Assembly (NCBI GenBank): GCA_000972765.1
Contig: CP011265.1
Coordinates: 2,849,001-2,913,000, forward strand
DNA length: 64,000 nucleotides
Direction: 5' to 3'
Origin: Verrucomicrobia bacterium IMCC26134
Lineage (GTDB): Bacteria; Verrucomicrobiota; Verrucomicrobiia; Opitutales; Opitutaceae
The stretch's first letter is position 1; every line of letters starts with the position of its first letter. The notes beneath the pieces are model-generated. The model saw only the letters and a program-made list of their open reading frames with translations, was not told where the DNA came from and ran no database searches. The position numbers were made by a program, and so were the translations under genes. This document shows positions 48,169 through 53,334 of the stretch, piece by piece.

Positions 48169-51100
48169 TTACTGCGTGGTGACGCGCAGGCGCAGGAACT
48201 TCTTGGGTCCGTCCAGGGGCACGCGGAAGCTGTGCACGGGAGCGATGCCGGTGTCGGTCACGGGCTGCCAGTCGTTGCCGAGCGTCGCGCTCCACTCGGC
48301 GCCGTAGGTGAGGCCGCTGACTCCGCTTGGCTCGGTGAACTCGTAGCTCAGTGAGCCCCCGCTGGCGGTGGCCTGCGGGAGCTGGCTGCTCCGCACCGTG
48401 GCGGGATCCTGGGCCGGGCCGAAGAAGGCATAGACCAGCAGGTTCGGGACGCCGGTGTGGTAGGGGTCAGCCGCGTCGGCGGCGGTGCCGGTGTTGGTGG
48501 CGGTGGGGCCGAAGTAGGTCTCGCGCCAGGTGTTGACGGTGTTGATCTCGAAGTTCGCGGTGACGATGCGACTCGCCATCACGTTGGTATCGGTGCGCGG
48601 GTTGGCGGTGGAGCCGTCGCTCCAGCTCACGAAGCGGTAGCCGGTGGCCGGCACGGCGGTGACGGCGGTGCCGCTGGCGCCGTAGTTGATCGTTTGCGGC
48701 GTAGTGCCGGTGAGGGTGCCGTGAAGGCCTGCCGTGTAGGTCAGGGTGCTCGTGGGTTCCGGTGGCACCACCACCATGCGGGTGGTGCTGCCGGTGATGC
48801 CGAGGAAATTGGCAGCCGTGTAGGTCAGCACGTAGCTGCCGAGCGTGTGGGAATCCACGCTGCCGCTGACCGTGGCTGGCAGATAGACGCTCGCGGGGAT
48901 GGTGCTCTCGCCATAGCTGTTACTTCCCCACGCGACGACCGTCCCGTCACGGCACAGCGCCAGATTTTGATTCCCGCCCACGGCAATGGCCACCACGTTG
49001 CTCAAGTCGGCGGGAACATTCATGGCTACATACTGTGAACCGTTGTAGTATTGTCCCCACGCGGCGACCGTCCCGTCGCTCCGCAGCGCCAGACTGTGGG
49101 ACCCGCCCGCGGCAATGGCCACCACGTTGCTCAAGTCGGCGGGGATGGTCGTCTGGCCGTAGGTATTGTCTCCCCACGCGGCGACCGTCCCGTCGCTCCG
49201 CAGCGCCAGACTGTGAGACCCACCGCCGGCAACGGCCACCACGTTGCTCAATCCAGGGGGAATGGTCGTCTGTTGAAGAAAATTATCTCCCCACGCGGCG
49301 ACCGTCCCGTCGCTCCGCAGCGCCAGACTGTGCGAGTAGCCCGCAGCAATGGCCACCACGTTGCTCAATCCAGGGGGAATGGTCGTCTGTTGAAGAAAAT
49401 TATTTCCCCAAGCGGCGATCGTCCCGTCACTGCGCAAAGCCAGATTGTGAGATCCGCCTGCGGCAATGGCCACCACGTTGCTCAACCCGGCGGGGATGGT
49501 CCTCTGGCGATAGCCATTGGAGCCCCACGCAGCGACTGTCCCATTGCCGCGTAGCGCCAGACTGTGAAACTCGCCGCCGGCAACCGCCACCACGTTGCTC
49601 AAACCGGTAGGGATGGTCGTCTGGCCAGTGGTATTACGACCCCAAGCGACCACTGTCCCGTCGCTCCGCAGCGCCAAGCTGTGAGACAGGCCAGCAGCAA
49701 GGGCGCTGGGCCCGGAGAAGGCGCCCAACTCGGTATAGGTGGTGTTGAGCTTGGTGAATACCGCCTCCGAGCCGTTCAACGTGACGGTGGGCACTGGCAC
49801 CGTCGGCGCACTCAGGCCGAAGAACGCGGTCACGTTCACATTCGCCATCACGTTGGTGTCGGTGCGCGGGTTGTCGGTGGAGCCGTCGCTCCAGCTTGCG
49901 AAGTGGTAGCCTGGGGCCGGCACAGCGGTGACGGCGGTGCCTGCGGTGCCATAGTCAACGGTCTGCGGCGTGGTGCCGGTAAGGGTGCCGTGGGTGCCTG
50001 CGGTATAAGTCAGACTAAAGGTGTCGATGGCGAAGTTGGCGGTCACGCTCAGGTCGGCCGTGACGTTGGTGTCGGTGCGTGGGTTGGCAGTGGAGCCGTC
50101 GCTCCAGTTCACGAAGTGGTAGCCGGTGGCGGGCACGGCCATGATGGCGGTGCTGCTCGCGTTGTAGTTGACCGTCTGCGGCGTGGTGCCAATTAGCGAG
50201 CCGTTGGAGCCAGCGGTATAGGTAGGCGTGTAGGTGTTGATGGCGAAGCTGGCAGTGACGTTCACATTCGTCATCACGTTGGTGTCGGTGCGCGGGTTGG
50301 CGGTGGAGCCGTCGCTCCAATTCAAGAAGTGATAGCCGGTGGCAGGCACGGCCGTTACCGCCGAACCTGTCGCAGTGGAGGAAGATAAAAATTGAGGCGT
50401 GGCGCCGGAAAGGGTGCCGTTGGCGCCTGCCTTGTAGTTCAGGCGGGCTAACACCACCACAGTGCGGGTGGTGGTGCTTGTGGCGCCCAAGCAATTGGCG
50501 GCCGTATAGGACAGCAGGTAGCTGCCGGGCGTATGGGTATCCACGCTGCCGGTGATCGTGGCAGGTAGATACACACTCGCGGGGATGGTCGTCTGGCCAT
50601 AATCATTACGACCCCACGCGGCGACCGTTCCGTCGCTGCGCAGCGCCAGACTGTGACTCGTGCCCGCAACAATGGCCACCACGTTGCTCAACCCGGCGGG
50701 GATGGTCGTCTGGCCAGAGCCATTGGATCCCCACCCGACGACCGTCCCGTCGCTGCGCAGCGCCAGGCTGTGTAAGTAGCCCGCAGCAATAGCCACCACG
50801 TTGCTCAAGCCGGCGGGGAGGGTCGTCTGGCCAGTGGCATTGTATCCCCACGCGGCGACCGTCCCGTCGCTCCGCAGCGCCAGATTGTGATAATGTCCAG
50901 CTGCGATCGCCACCACGTTACTCAACCCGGCGGGGATGGTCGTCTGGCCGTCGCCATTGTCTCCCCACGCGACGACCTTGCCGTCGCTGCACAGCGCCAG
51001 ACTGTGATTACTGCCCGCGGCAATGGCCACCACGTTGCTCAACCCGGGGGGGATGGTCGTCTGGCCGTAGCTATTGTATCCCCACGCGACAACCGTCCCG

Positions 51101-53334
51101 TCGCCGCGCAGCGCCAGACTGTGATAACTGCCCGCGGCAATGGCCACCACGTTGCTCAACCCGGCGGGGATGGTCGTCTGGCCGTAGTAATTATATCCCC
51201 AAGCGACGACCGTCCCGTCGCTCCGCAGCGCCAGACTGTGAGACTCACCGCCGGCAACGGCCACCACGTTGCTCAAGTCGGCGGGGATGGTCGTCTGGCC
51301 GTAGGTATCTTGTCCCCACCCGACAACCGTCCCGTCGCTTCGCAGCGCCAGATTGTGATTCCCTTCCGCAACAAGGGCACTTGGCCCGGAGAACGCGCCC
51401 AACTCGCTGTAGGAGCTGTTAACTGTCATGAATATCGTCTCCGGCCCGTTCAAAGTGACGGTGGGCACTGTCGTCTCCGGCCCGTTCAACGTAACGGGGG
51501 GCACTGGCACCGCGAGCGCATTCAGGCCGAAGAACGCGGTCACGTTCACATTCGCCATCACGTTGGCGTCGGTGCGGGGGTTGGCGGTGGAGCCGTCGCT
51601 CCAGTTCTCGAAGTGGTAACCGTTAGCCGGCACGGCGCTGACGGCGGTGCCGCTGGCAGAGGATACCACCAACTGAGTGGTGTAGCCGGAAAGGGTGCCA
51701 TTGGCGCCGGCGGTGTAGGTAAGGACGTAGGGGATGACGACGGAGTTGGAGGTGCCGGTGGTGAGGCTGGTGCCGATGGCATTGCTGGCGGCGACCGTGA
51801 AGGTGTAGGCGGTGCCGTTGGTCAGTCCAGTGACGGTTATGGCGGTGGCCGCTCCGACCGAGGTGCCAGTGAGACCGCCGGGATTGGAGGTCGCGATGTA
51901 GCTGGTGATAGCAGAGCCCCCATTGCTGGACGGAGGGTTGAAGGTAAGGGAGACTTGCCTGTTTCCGGCATTGGCGACGACATTCGTGGGAGCGTTGGGC
52001 GCCGGAGCGGTATGAGTGTGCACGGGCATTTGTGCGGTGGTGAGGGTCACCGTTTCCGTGCCCCACTTTTCTCCAATCACGCAGTTGGTTAACCCAACGC
52101 CTTGGCCAGTGCTGACGGCGCTGCGGCCTTGCAGGTCGGGAAGGGCGAAATTTTGAATTCCATTGCCGCCAAAGGTGGTGCCAAGCAGGGAAAAAAGGGC
52201 CGCGTTTTGATTTATAGGCATCAATGCTCCATCGCAGTTAACATAGCCATTCGCGGTCGAAGATTGGGCAAAGAAGCGCACCTCGCCGATGGCCGGGTCA
52301 CTTTCGCTACGGCCATAAATACCTTGAGTCGCGATCATGGCTTTCAGCGCCAGGTAAGGCTGGGACTTGTTCAAGGCCGTAGCGCTGCCAGTGCTGCCTG
52401 TCGTGCCGACTGCCAGAGCATGGCTGTGCGCAGGGAGCTGGCTGGCGGTCAGGGTCAGACTGCTGGCTCCGCTTAATTCGCCGAGTTGGCGGGAGGTCAG
52501 GCCGGCGCCCGCACCGATGCCGAGGAGGGCGCGGCCACGCAAATCCGGTAGCCCCAGGGTATCGTTTCCATTCCAGCCGCCAAAGGTGGTGGCGATTTGC
52601 GCGAAGAGTGTCGGATTGGAGCTAGTCGCCACCAAGCCACCTGTGCAGGGGTAAAATCCCGTGGGGGTGAAAGTATAAGGAAAAACACGGATCCACCCGA
52701 TGGACTGGAAAACTCCGCCGCCTTGAATGCAGATGTTCAGGGCAAGGTAAGGCTGTTGATTGCTAAACGCTTGGTTGGCGCCGGTGGAGCCGGTGCTGTT
52801 GGGGGCAACCGTGATGCTATGGCTGTGACTCGGCAGTTGGGAGGAATTCAGGGACACTGCTTCTTGACCGCCGGCGGCACCCAGTTCGTATTGAGCATTT
52901 CCAGGAGATACGCCGACGGGCACCCGACCACGAAGGTCAGGGAGAGCGAAAGTAGTGCTTCCGTTGCCGCCAAAGGAGGTGCCGAGCAGGGAAAAAAGGG
53001 CGGCGTTTTGGCTGATGGGTAAAAGTCGGCCATCACAGGGCAGAAAGTCAGTAAGTGCGTCAAAAGTGACACAACGGATTTCGCCAAGGTAAGGCTCGTC
53101 CCCAGATCCCGCGTCCACCCCGCCATCTCTAGTTGGGTAAATACCCGATATGCAAATCACCCAATTGAGCGCAAGTTTTGGGTTAGTGGTGTCCACCGGG
53201 GCGGGGCTGTTGGCTCCCGCCGCCGCTGTGTAGGTCACCGGGATTTCAGCCGCTTGCGCAGACGGACTGAAGTGAGGCAAGAACCCCGCCGCCAGGATGG
53301 CGACGGAGGTGAGCAAGCGGCGGAGTGCGGTCAT
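48169..53334 (-). CDS. Giant secreted protein: three tail-collar domains, FN3, InlB-type repeats and two nested RCC1 propellers
   Basis: 1,721 residues. Signal peptide (LLTSVAILAAGFLPHFSPSA) is followed by three phage-tail-collar domains (FLPCDGRLLPISQNAALFSL; FYPCTGGLVATSSNPTLFAQ; GYVNCDGALMPINQNAALFS, each with a LPDLxGR motif and a PxHxH motif), an FN3 domain (APTNVVANAGNRQVSLTF), an InlB-type repeat (NGYHFENWSDGS), and a split Ig-like DUF5011 domain enclosing seven RCC1 blades (HSLALRSDGTVVAWG). Three more InlB-type repeats, a second split DUF5011 with seven blades, and a fifth InlB-type repeat follow, then a C-terminal domain seen in other secreted proteins here (DAADPYHTGVPNLLVYAFF). 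Probable extracellular adhesin or glycan/protein-binding scaffold; no catalytic residues. Start at the ATG at 53334. Followed by a terminator; monocistronic. Confidence 0.88.
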   Translation of the reverse strand: MTALRRLLTSVAILAAGFLPHFSPSAQAAEIPVTYTAAAGANSPAPVDTTNPKLALNWVICISGIYPTRDGGVDAGSGDEPYLGEIRCVTFDALTDFLPCDGRLLPISQNAALFSLLGTSFGGNGSTTFALPDLRGRVPVGVSPGNAQYELGAAGGQEAVSLNSSQLPSHSHSITVAPNSTGSTGANQAFSNQQPYLALNICIQGGGVFQSIGWIRVFPYTFTPTGFYPCTGGLVATSSNPTLFAQIATTFGGWNGNDTLGLPDLRGRALLGIGAGAGLTSRQLGELSGASSLTLTASQLPAHSHALAVGTTGSTGSATALNKSQPYLALKAMIATQGIYGRSESDPAIGEVRFFAQSSTANGYVNCDGALMPINQNAALFSLLGTTFGGNGIQNFALPDLQGRSAVSTGQGVGLTNCVIGEKWGTETVTLTTAQMPVHTHTAPAPNAPTNVVANAGNRQVSLTFNPPSSNGGSAITSYIATSNPGGLTGTSVGAATAITVTGLTNGTAYTFTVAASNAIGTSLTTGTSNSVVIPYVLTYTAGANGTLSGYTTQLVVSSASGTAVSAVPANGYHFENWSDGSTANPRTDANVMANVNVTAFFGLNALAVPVPPVTLNGPETTVPTVTLNGPETIFMTVNSSYSELGAFSGPSALVAEGNHNLALRSDGTVVGWGQDTYGQTTIPADLSNVVAVAGGESHSLALRSDGTVVAWGYNYYGQTTIPAGLSNVVAIAAGSYHSLALRGDGTVVAWGYNSYGQTTIPPGLSNVVAIAAGSNHSLALCSDGKVVAWGDNGDGQTTIPAGLSNVVAIAAGHYHNLALRSDGTVAAWGYNATGQTTLPAGLSNVVAIAAGYLHSLALRSDGTVVGWGSNGSGQTTIPAGLSNVVAIVAGTSHSLALRSDGTVAAWGRNDYGQTTIPASVYLPATITGSVDTHTPGSYLLSYTAANCLGATSTTTRTVVVLARLNYKAGANGTLSGATPQFLSSSTATGSAVTAVPATGYHFLNWSDGSTANPRTDTNVMTNVNVTASFAINTYTPTYTAGSNGSLIGTTPQTVNYNASSTAIMAVPATGYHFVNWSDGSTANPRTDTNVTADLSVTANFAIDTFSLTYTAGTHGTLTGTTPQTVDYGTAGTAVTAVPAPGYHFASWSDGSTDNPRTDTNVMANVNVTAFFGLSAPTVPVPTVTLNGSEAVFTKLNTTYTELGAFSGPSALAAGLSHSLALRSDGTVVAWGRNTTGQTTIPTGLSNVVAVAGGEFHSLALRGNGTVAAWGSNGYRQRTIPAGLSNVVAIAAGGSHNLALRSDGTIAAWGNNFLQQTTIPPGLSNVVAIAAGYSHSLALRSDGTVAAWGDNFLQQTTIPPGLSNVVAVAGGGSHSLALRSDGTVAAWGDNTYGQTTIPADLSNVVAIAAGGSHSLALRSDGTVAAWGQYYNGSQYVAMNVPADLSNVVAIAVGGNQNLALCRDGTVVAWGSNSYGESTIPASVYLPATVSGSVDSHTLGSYVLTYTAANFLGITGSTTRMVVVPPEPTSTLTYTAGLHGTLTGTTPQTINYGASGTAVTAVPATGYRFVSWSDGSTANPRTDTNVMASRIVTANFEINTVNTWRETYFGPTATNTGTAADAADPYHTGVPNLLVYAFFGPAQDPATVRSSQLPQATASGGSLSYEFTEPSGVSGLTYGAEWSATLGNDWQPVTDTGIAPVHSFRVPLDGPKKFLRLRVTTQ
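48895..49700 (-). repeat. Tandem RCC1-type repeats, second propeller
   Basis: Seven consecutive units of about 114-126 bp, each encoding SHSLALRSDGTVAAWG followed by a variable loop and TIPxxLSNVVAIAAG. Units 3 and 4 share the loop NFLQQTTIPPGLSN and are nearly identical at DNA level. Unit 6 has an altered loop (QYYNGSQYVAMNV). Confidence 0.85.
50580..51370 (-). repeat. Tandem RCC1-type repeats, first propeller
   Basis: Seven consecutive units of about 114 bp, each encoding (S/N)LALRSDGTVVAWG, a variable six-residue loop, GQTTIPAGLSNVVAIAAG. Boundaries are approximate. Confidence 0.85.

Follow-up and report, generated by a model that had tools for sequence, protein, structure and literature searches.

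Putative loop-grafted, diversified binding heads: seven-bladed RCC1/BLIP-II-type propellers within Ig-like domains of Verrucomicrobia

Introduction

BLIP-II is described as a secreted seven-bladed propeller with three-stranded blades, which binds its beta-lactamase targets at picomolar strength or better (PMC6121496), and the RCC1/BLIP-II group is described as large and predominantly bacterial, its propellers being highly repetitive (PMC9218822). The locus reported here was found in a window (the whole stretch of DNA that was analysed, 64,000 nucleotides) of the genome of Verrucomicrobia bacterium IMCC26134, and encodes a protein in which two runs of blades of this type appear to be nested inside Ig-like domains. 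No description of RCC1 propellers nested in Ig-like domains was found in the full-text literature, subscription papers and preprints being outside the scope of that search, and neither was a full-text paper found that pairs RCC1 with DUF5011, or the RCC1 repeat with Verrucomicrobia. The component parts are already known; this nesting is apparently new.

Results

Organisation of the protein

The ORF spans positions 48169 to 53334 of the window on the minus strand, as do all features given below, and from an ATG start it encodes a probably secreted, multi-domain protein of 1721 amino acids. A probable Sec signal peptide (residues 1-28, ending in SAQA before AE; 53251-53334) was read by eye from the sequence. 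Pfam reported three Phage Tail Collar domains (PF07484), five InlB B-type repeats (Flg_new_2), one fibronectin type III domain and 14 stretches of RCC1_2, the last with a score of 433.9 bits against a cut-off of 22; NCBIfam gave chance-like matches only. The first Collar domain (residues 84-139) is located at 52906-53088, and the second and third, counted by Pfam and delimited by eye, at 52513-52701 and 52105-52290. The fibronectin type III domain (residues 448-523 in Pfam, limits by eye) is at 51739-52002, and the InlB-type repeats, also with limits set by eye, are at 51529-51729 (repeat 1), 49819-50445 (repeats 2-4) and 48550-48744 (repeat 5).

Between these repeats are the two nested units. 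In unit 1 the N-terminal half of the Ig-like host (residues 626-650; 51385-51459) was placed by split-profile tests and the model, the seven RCC1/BLIP-II-type blades (residues 651-921; 50572-51384) by a blade HMM, the model and the fold match, and the C-terminal half (residues 922-961; 50452-50571) by Pfam, split-profile tests and the model. The corresponding parts of unit 2 are residues 1184-1208 (49711-49785; split-profile tests), 1209-1483 (48886-49710; blade HMM) and 1484-1523 (48766-48885; PF16403 genome search and split-profile tests). The succession of N-half pattern, blades and C-half quoted in the initial annotation is thus present in both units. As the units stand between InlB-type repeats in a protein with an apparent signal peptide, which is itself probably secreted on the strength of that peptide, the two propellers are probably held away from the cell or in the medium.

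Directly before unit 1 there is a partial duplicate of the host N-half, 11 residues long in the sequence (VTLNGPETTVP; 51463-51495), which is a possible recombination trace at the module edge. The protein ends in a domain of about 120 residues (48172-48534) for which a genome search gave 25 matches in the same genome, in many large ORFs and with 88-100% identity in five proteins. This shared domain, here and in 24 other places, is a candidate sorting or anchoring signal.

The Ig-like host domain is split around the blades

The host domain is PF16403, labelled Bact_surface_Ig-like in Pfam, which we take to be DUF5011. In the one-contig genome of 4.0 Mb there are 22 matches to PF16403, 13 of them whole (twelve spanning profile positions 1-71 and one 6-71) and nine truncated on the left, beginning at profile position 29, 33, 35 or 36. 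All nine truncated matches sit in four giant ORFs that carry RCC1 blades: two in the window protein, three in L009 (3217 aa) and two each in L010 (2555 aa) and L011 (2757 aa). In every one of the nine the missing N-half was found upstream, with seven blades in between.

Taken alone, Pfam gives only two C-terminal pieces of PF16403 in the window protein, the better being residues 926-961 on profile positions 36-71. This would suit an arrangement in which the flanks are parts of different degenerate Ig-like domains and the propeller merely lies between them. The halves were compared with a local host HMM built from 11 of the 13 whole domains of the genome. In all 16 units tested the N-half alone began at model position 1 or 2 and ran to 22-25, while the C-half alone began at 31-35 and ran to 69-71, so that one N-half and one C-half form adjacent, non-overlapping parts of a single profile. 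The shuffle test, with 200 N-half shuffles each, took in 16 of the 17 units known (L204 was left out). Joined halves outscored every shuffle in 11 units, and the joined score was reached by 1, 4, 5 and 7 of 200 shuffles in four further units, giving 15 of 16 in which at most seven shuffles reached it; the exception is the second unit of L050 (33/200). By eye, both host halves are kept in 17/17 units across six genomes. Complementary halves of one profile, met this consistently, make the arrangement from different domains very improbable, and argue for a single domain that has been split.

Pfam agrees with the local profile. With the blades left out and their halves joined, the two units of the window protein scored 44.9 and 37.1 bits on profile positions 2-71 (cut-off 27), and with one further unit of the genome the joined scores are 44.9, 37.1 and 47.8 bits against 38.9, 31.9 and 40.9 when the C-half is scored by itself. 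Pfam had no match to either of two N-halves searched separately, those of window unit 1 and L010 unit 1.

The insert stands in place of host model positions of about 24-34, with some 270 residues instead. The initial annotation had described the segment joining the halves in ordinary DUF5011 domains as a short variable loop, which holds for its second part, to which free variation is confined among the 11 aligned whole domains, but not for its start. This replaced segment is partly conserved, since it opens with TATDN in seven of the 11 and with the close variants TASDN, TATDE or AADE in the other four.

Predicted structure and fold relatives

An AlphaFold run with an alignment of four rows reached a pLDDT of 51.7 and left both Ig halves unmodelled. 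With 28 chosen rows the prediction for unit 1 reached a pLDDT of 95.8 and a pTM of 0.87, the five models of that run ranging from 95.8 down to 63.1. Of these rows, five came from nested units, one of them partial, and seven from propellers of viral contigs; the other 16 were eight DUF5011 N-halves and eight C-halves, entered separately so that no such row pairs them. The alignment folded was a trimmed version from which four astray residues of the N-half rows had been removed; another, of whole DUF5011 domains with nested units, misplaced the N-halves inside blades and was not used for folding. Because the rows were chosen by hand and include DUF5011 halves, the 28-row model is conditioned on the nesting reading.

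In this conditioned model 21 propeller strands lie between three N-half and three C-half strands, both flanks have pLDDT values of 82-96, and the flanks do not appear as separate full domains. On the model, the two host halves may pack as one beta sandwich. For flanks belonging to different domains it can be said that the host domain did not form in the four-row model; the 28-row model, read through its strands and confidence values, gives both halves a high pLDDT, which speaks, together with the profile tests, for one host domain.

The propeller itself has close solved relatives. The best Foldseek matches in the PDB were BLIP-II chains (E 2e-28, 51% identity, TM 0.86 by target length), and BLIP-II is also the closest solved relative by sequence (E 1e-62). 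VIA-align gave Z 36.6 for UVR8 (278 aligned residues, rmsd 1.9) and Z 34.8 for BLIP-II (246 aligned, rmsd 1.7), residues after 301 being barely tested in that comparison. For the C-half there are weak matches to chitinase 60 (4hmc) and BT_2262 (5fq7).

Blade number and occurrence of nested units

Blades were counted with a 39-residue blade HMM, which found seven in each of the two window inserts, the number that the initial annotation had given and one that closes a propeller. All 15 uninterrupted nested units counted in this way have seven blades (nine in the own genome, one each in L049 and L050, and two each in L084 and L085), including one L010 unit that appears as six pieces by motif pattern and for which the HMM count was used. 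L204, met in a later RCC1 survey, has one nested unit, again with seven blades, and the second L050 unit has 3+4 blades around an in-frame stop. In total there are 17 complete units, 17/17 with seven blades, nine of them in four proteins of the own genome and eight in five other genomes, so the design is not peculiar to the window protein. L048 was left out of the unit counts as its contig begins inside blades. The number is not forced by the family, because RCC1 relatives with ten repeats are described (PMC2716378). The interrupted unit of L050 (2829-3908, a metagenome contig) is stopped in frame after three blades, and may be a pseudogene or a sequencing error.

Homologues were met elsewhere in the Verrucomicrobiota. 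A scan of GTDB contigs with the C-terminal junction gave eight loci, with nested units in L048-L050 (Verrucomicrobia MAGs) and none in the ORFs of L051-L055. Matches to the junction from its position 1 were found in 1/200 genomes of the family sample (own), 1/15 of the genus sample (own), 4/384 of the class sample (own, G304, G454 and G457) and, at E 1e-10, 1/387 of the phylum sample (own); these samples overlap, and G457 and L049, whose contigs agree in length and match, were counted once. The counts are lower bounds, because L204 (genome G227) escaped the junction search. Weaker junction matches in G355, G502 and G245 had no RCC1 blades by motif pattern, and G439, considered as a nested case, was rejected as its blades adjoin a whole DUF5011 domain in tandem.

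A tree of the units groups all nine own units in one clade (support 99/93) and the two window units as sisters (87/86); seven of its 14 inner branches are without resolution, and its bootstrap values were not yet stable. From this single clade it is probable that the lineage acquired the nested module one time and that the module multiplied within it afterwards. Across the class the module occurs here and there in several families, which suggests transfer or repeated loss.

The units also appear, from their sequences, to behave as exchangeable modules between paralogues. L208 (2138000-2144500 of the own genome, minus strand), one of the five proteins with 88-100% identity in the C-terminal domain, shares with the window protein, by eye, its type of ends, the block of three Collar domains and the fibronectin type III domain, and has four TIG-like repeats where the window protein has its nested propellers; no propeller or DUF5011 domain was seen in it. 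Collar was absent from the Pfam lists of L009 and L010 and none was seen by eye in L011; L009 and L010 carry DUF5122 propeller repeats, and L009 also two TIG domains. The three Collar domains, which had been noted as carried by the nested scaffold, are therefore in the same protein but belong to a separate module, common to the propeller-free paralogue and not found in L009-L011. Besides the Collar domains there are PHROG tail matches, and no phage gene was recognised by eye among the neighbouring ORFs, three of which were scanned with Pfam.

Variability of the blades coincides with BLIP-II contact positions

Variability was determined for 62 of the 63 own blades, one L011 blade having been missed by the motif pattern. 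Five columns (8, 9, 25, 27 and 28) are hypervariable, with entropies of 2.7-3.1 bits, two lying in the GxxH motif and three in WGxNxxGQ, and the remaining columns among 0-28 do not exceed 1.47 bits. In BLIP-II, 22 residues are listed as touching TEM-1 or Bla1 (PMC10817188), and 20 of these map, by hand on the alignment, to the GxxH and WGxNxxGQ loops; of the other two, Thr57 is outside both loops and Asn304 is beyond the alignment. One of the 20, printed as Tyr19 in that paper, was taken as Tyr191. All five of the most variable of the 29 columns fall within the six BLIP-II contact columns (P 5e-5), a comparison in which the contacts were consulted after the variable columns had been seen and the contact list is the published one.

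At the six contact columns pN/pS is 1.34 (1.12-1.66), and at the other 23 columns 0.44 (0.37-0.57), with intervals from a bootstrap over the nine own units; the ratio is a pairwise count over paralogues that includes multi-step codon changes, and not a site model. The five columns picked by variability give 1.47, a value that is biased upward by that choice. Because the most variable residues sit where BLIP-II grips its target, the nested propellers are probably interchangeable binding heads.

These results have to be weighed against a reading that keeps the nested fold but makes the propellers spacers or stabilised elements of a stalk, with loops that vary through relaxed constraint. Loops are often more variable than strands, columns 29-34, outside the contacts, give a pN/pS of 1.02, and the class sample, in which 200 blades of both types were pooled, has its highest variability in the identical five columns. 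However, the variability does not extend over the whole loop: Asn 26, which lies between variable columns, is retained in 50/62 blades, and the entropy of columns 29-34 stays at or below 1.94 bits. Furthermore, the ratio at the contact columns is above the value of about 1 expected from relaxed constraint alone. We consider spacers unlikely, though worth keeping in view, and prefer binding heads. Since blades of the class share the variable columns, their diversity is a family trait that the nested propellers have kept, and did not arise through nesting.

In favour of rewriting of the blade loops by a diversity-generating retroelement, variation is limited to few codons, and third bases within a column often stay the same while the first two change. 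Nevertheless, the reverse transcriptase profile PF00078 had no match in the one-contig own genome, under a control that was positive in 3/14 genomes, which makes such an element unlikely, and all four bases are present at codon position 1 in each of the variable columns. We give this explanation hardly any weight, and diversification by duplication and selection is preferred.

Blade register and other host domains

In HMM coordinates each of the 23 uncut nested runs begins within positions 1-10 and finishes within 22-38. By automatic labelling, 18 of them are edge/edge, four are half/edge, each with an upstream motif match and HMM starts at 3-9, and one is edge/half (L098, which ends at 22). 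Free runs of the 39-residue type in the class and own genome, drawn from 40 stretches among the matches listed and from L012 and L013, were half/half in 27 of 30, half/edge in two and edge/half in one. As nested runs start at a blade edge, and most free runs, like BLIP-II, in mid-blade, both BLIP-II and the majority of free propellers in the class are related to the nested ones by circular permutation.

As a mark of nesting alone, blade-edge register lost weight, since 16 of 20 viral-contig runs not labelled as nested have an edge at both ends; nine of the 20 touch an ORF end (eight in edge register), and the set includes duplicates, for example L101 and L102. By eye, L092, L099 and L111 among them look nested in other domains. 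In L092 (3001-3807) a seven-blade run is apparently inside what we presume to be a phage fibre beta-domain, and in L099 (3079-3975) another is apparently inside a repeat that we take to be of the delta-60 (DUF5122-like) type, a propeller within a propeller.

Two other apparent host domains were met on viral contigs. L097 (1-6888) and L127 (1-6120), both of IMGVR_UViG_3300034082_004705, make up one protein with 14, 7 and 7 blades inside three MBG-type domains, adjoined by whole MBG domains; the 14-blade insert corresponds to two rings. The joined MBG halves beat 200/200 shuffles in two of the three cases, and in the third the score was reached by 11/200. In L098, L103, L108 and L109 seven blades appear to lie inside He_PIG-type domains (4/4), as judged by comparison with sibling repeats. 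He_PIG nesting is a candidate case drawn from this comparison, as the joined score did not stand clear of the shuffles in any of the four.

In related genomes L178, L182 and L194 have 15, 14 and 14 hits of a blade type of about 50 residues, and are possibly double rings.

Discussion

Starting from the computed split domain, blade count, relatives, predicted fold, hypervariability and elevated pN/pS, the whole is best explained, with a probability of roughly 0.7, as a nested propeller in an Ig-like loop that acts as a diversified binding head. Each unit would be one discontinuous PF16403 Ig-like domain, in which the loop between the 'GA' and 'V(S/T)GSVD' strands has become a seven-bladed propeller. 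The guest would be a complete ring of the RCC1/BLIP-II family (PF13540, PF25390), cut at a blade edge rather than in mid-blade, and the host strands would hold its ends; a closed propeller fits a loop because its two ends lie side by side. Each propeller, presumably exported, would then most likely serve as an interchangeable head that binds a protein or ligand target, with the Ig-like domain as its socket, and duplication and selection would have diversified the heads for binding. That the propeller is nested inside DUF5011, as the initial annotation proposed, is borne out by the split-profile tests, the conditioned model, the constant seven blades and the recurrence in other genomes. Nesting recurs, and the case for it is stronger than had been claimed, the packing of the halves being a prediction of the model. 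The display scaffold proposed in the initial annotation gains some indirect support from the hypervariable contact face of the blades, through which the propellers would bind.

More tentatively, and with odds somewhat below even, RCC1/BLIP-II propellers could be a general plug-in binding head, cut at the blade edge and grafted repeatedly into DUF5011, MBG and He_PIG domains, and perhaps also into a delta-60 propeller and a domain of a phage fibre. They would always be complete rings, with 7 or 14 blades, and with some 35 hypervariable contact residues under selection, like antibody loops on an Ig frame. As predictions, the 7-or-14 rule and the register at the blade edge are simple enough to check across databases.

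A whole propeller in an Ig-like loop, with seven blades in each unit, is a natural demonstration of a closed ring as a loop graft. If the nested units are a natural family of grafted, diversified BLIP-II-like heads, they would be a new bacterial recognition system and a template for binder engineering, as BLIP-II is described as binding at picomolar strength or better (PMC6121496). In addition, domain annotation misses nested cases, since the host domain is reported as a fragment.

Compared with known systems, the nested propellers most resemble Streptomyces BLIP-II (PDB 1jtd, 3qhy and 3qi0), with about 50% identity by Foldseek and VIA-align, and the contact residues of BLIP-II occupy the columns that are variable in the nested blades. 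They differ in that the BLIP-II chain starts in mid-blade and is free-standing, whereas the nested ring is cut at a blade edge and lies inside an Ig-like domain of a larger protein. Inhibition of beta-lactamase is not implied for the nested propellers, and the contact positions are variable here. The host resembles PF16403, of which the nested halves match adjacent parts, and differs from it in the replacement of positions of about 24-34 by some 270 residues. Free RCC1 proteins of the own genome and class (L012, L013, L170, L187 and others) have the same blade type and the same most variable columns but, unlike the nested runs, are split in mid-blade at both ends in 27/30 runs among the matches listed.

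A propeller in a domain-within-domain arrangement is also described for the Vibrio cholerae sialidase and similar proteins, where the case is the converse, as a lectin-type domain interrupts the blades, and here the propeller is the guest (PMC2716378). BapP of Pseudoalteromonas tunicata is likewise described as an adhesin that is secreted and combines twelve Ig-like domains with a propeller, but this propeller is five-bladed, N-terminal and in tandem with the Ig-like domains, and not inside one (PMC12153261).
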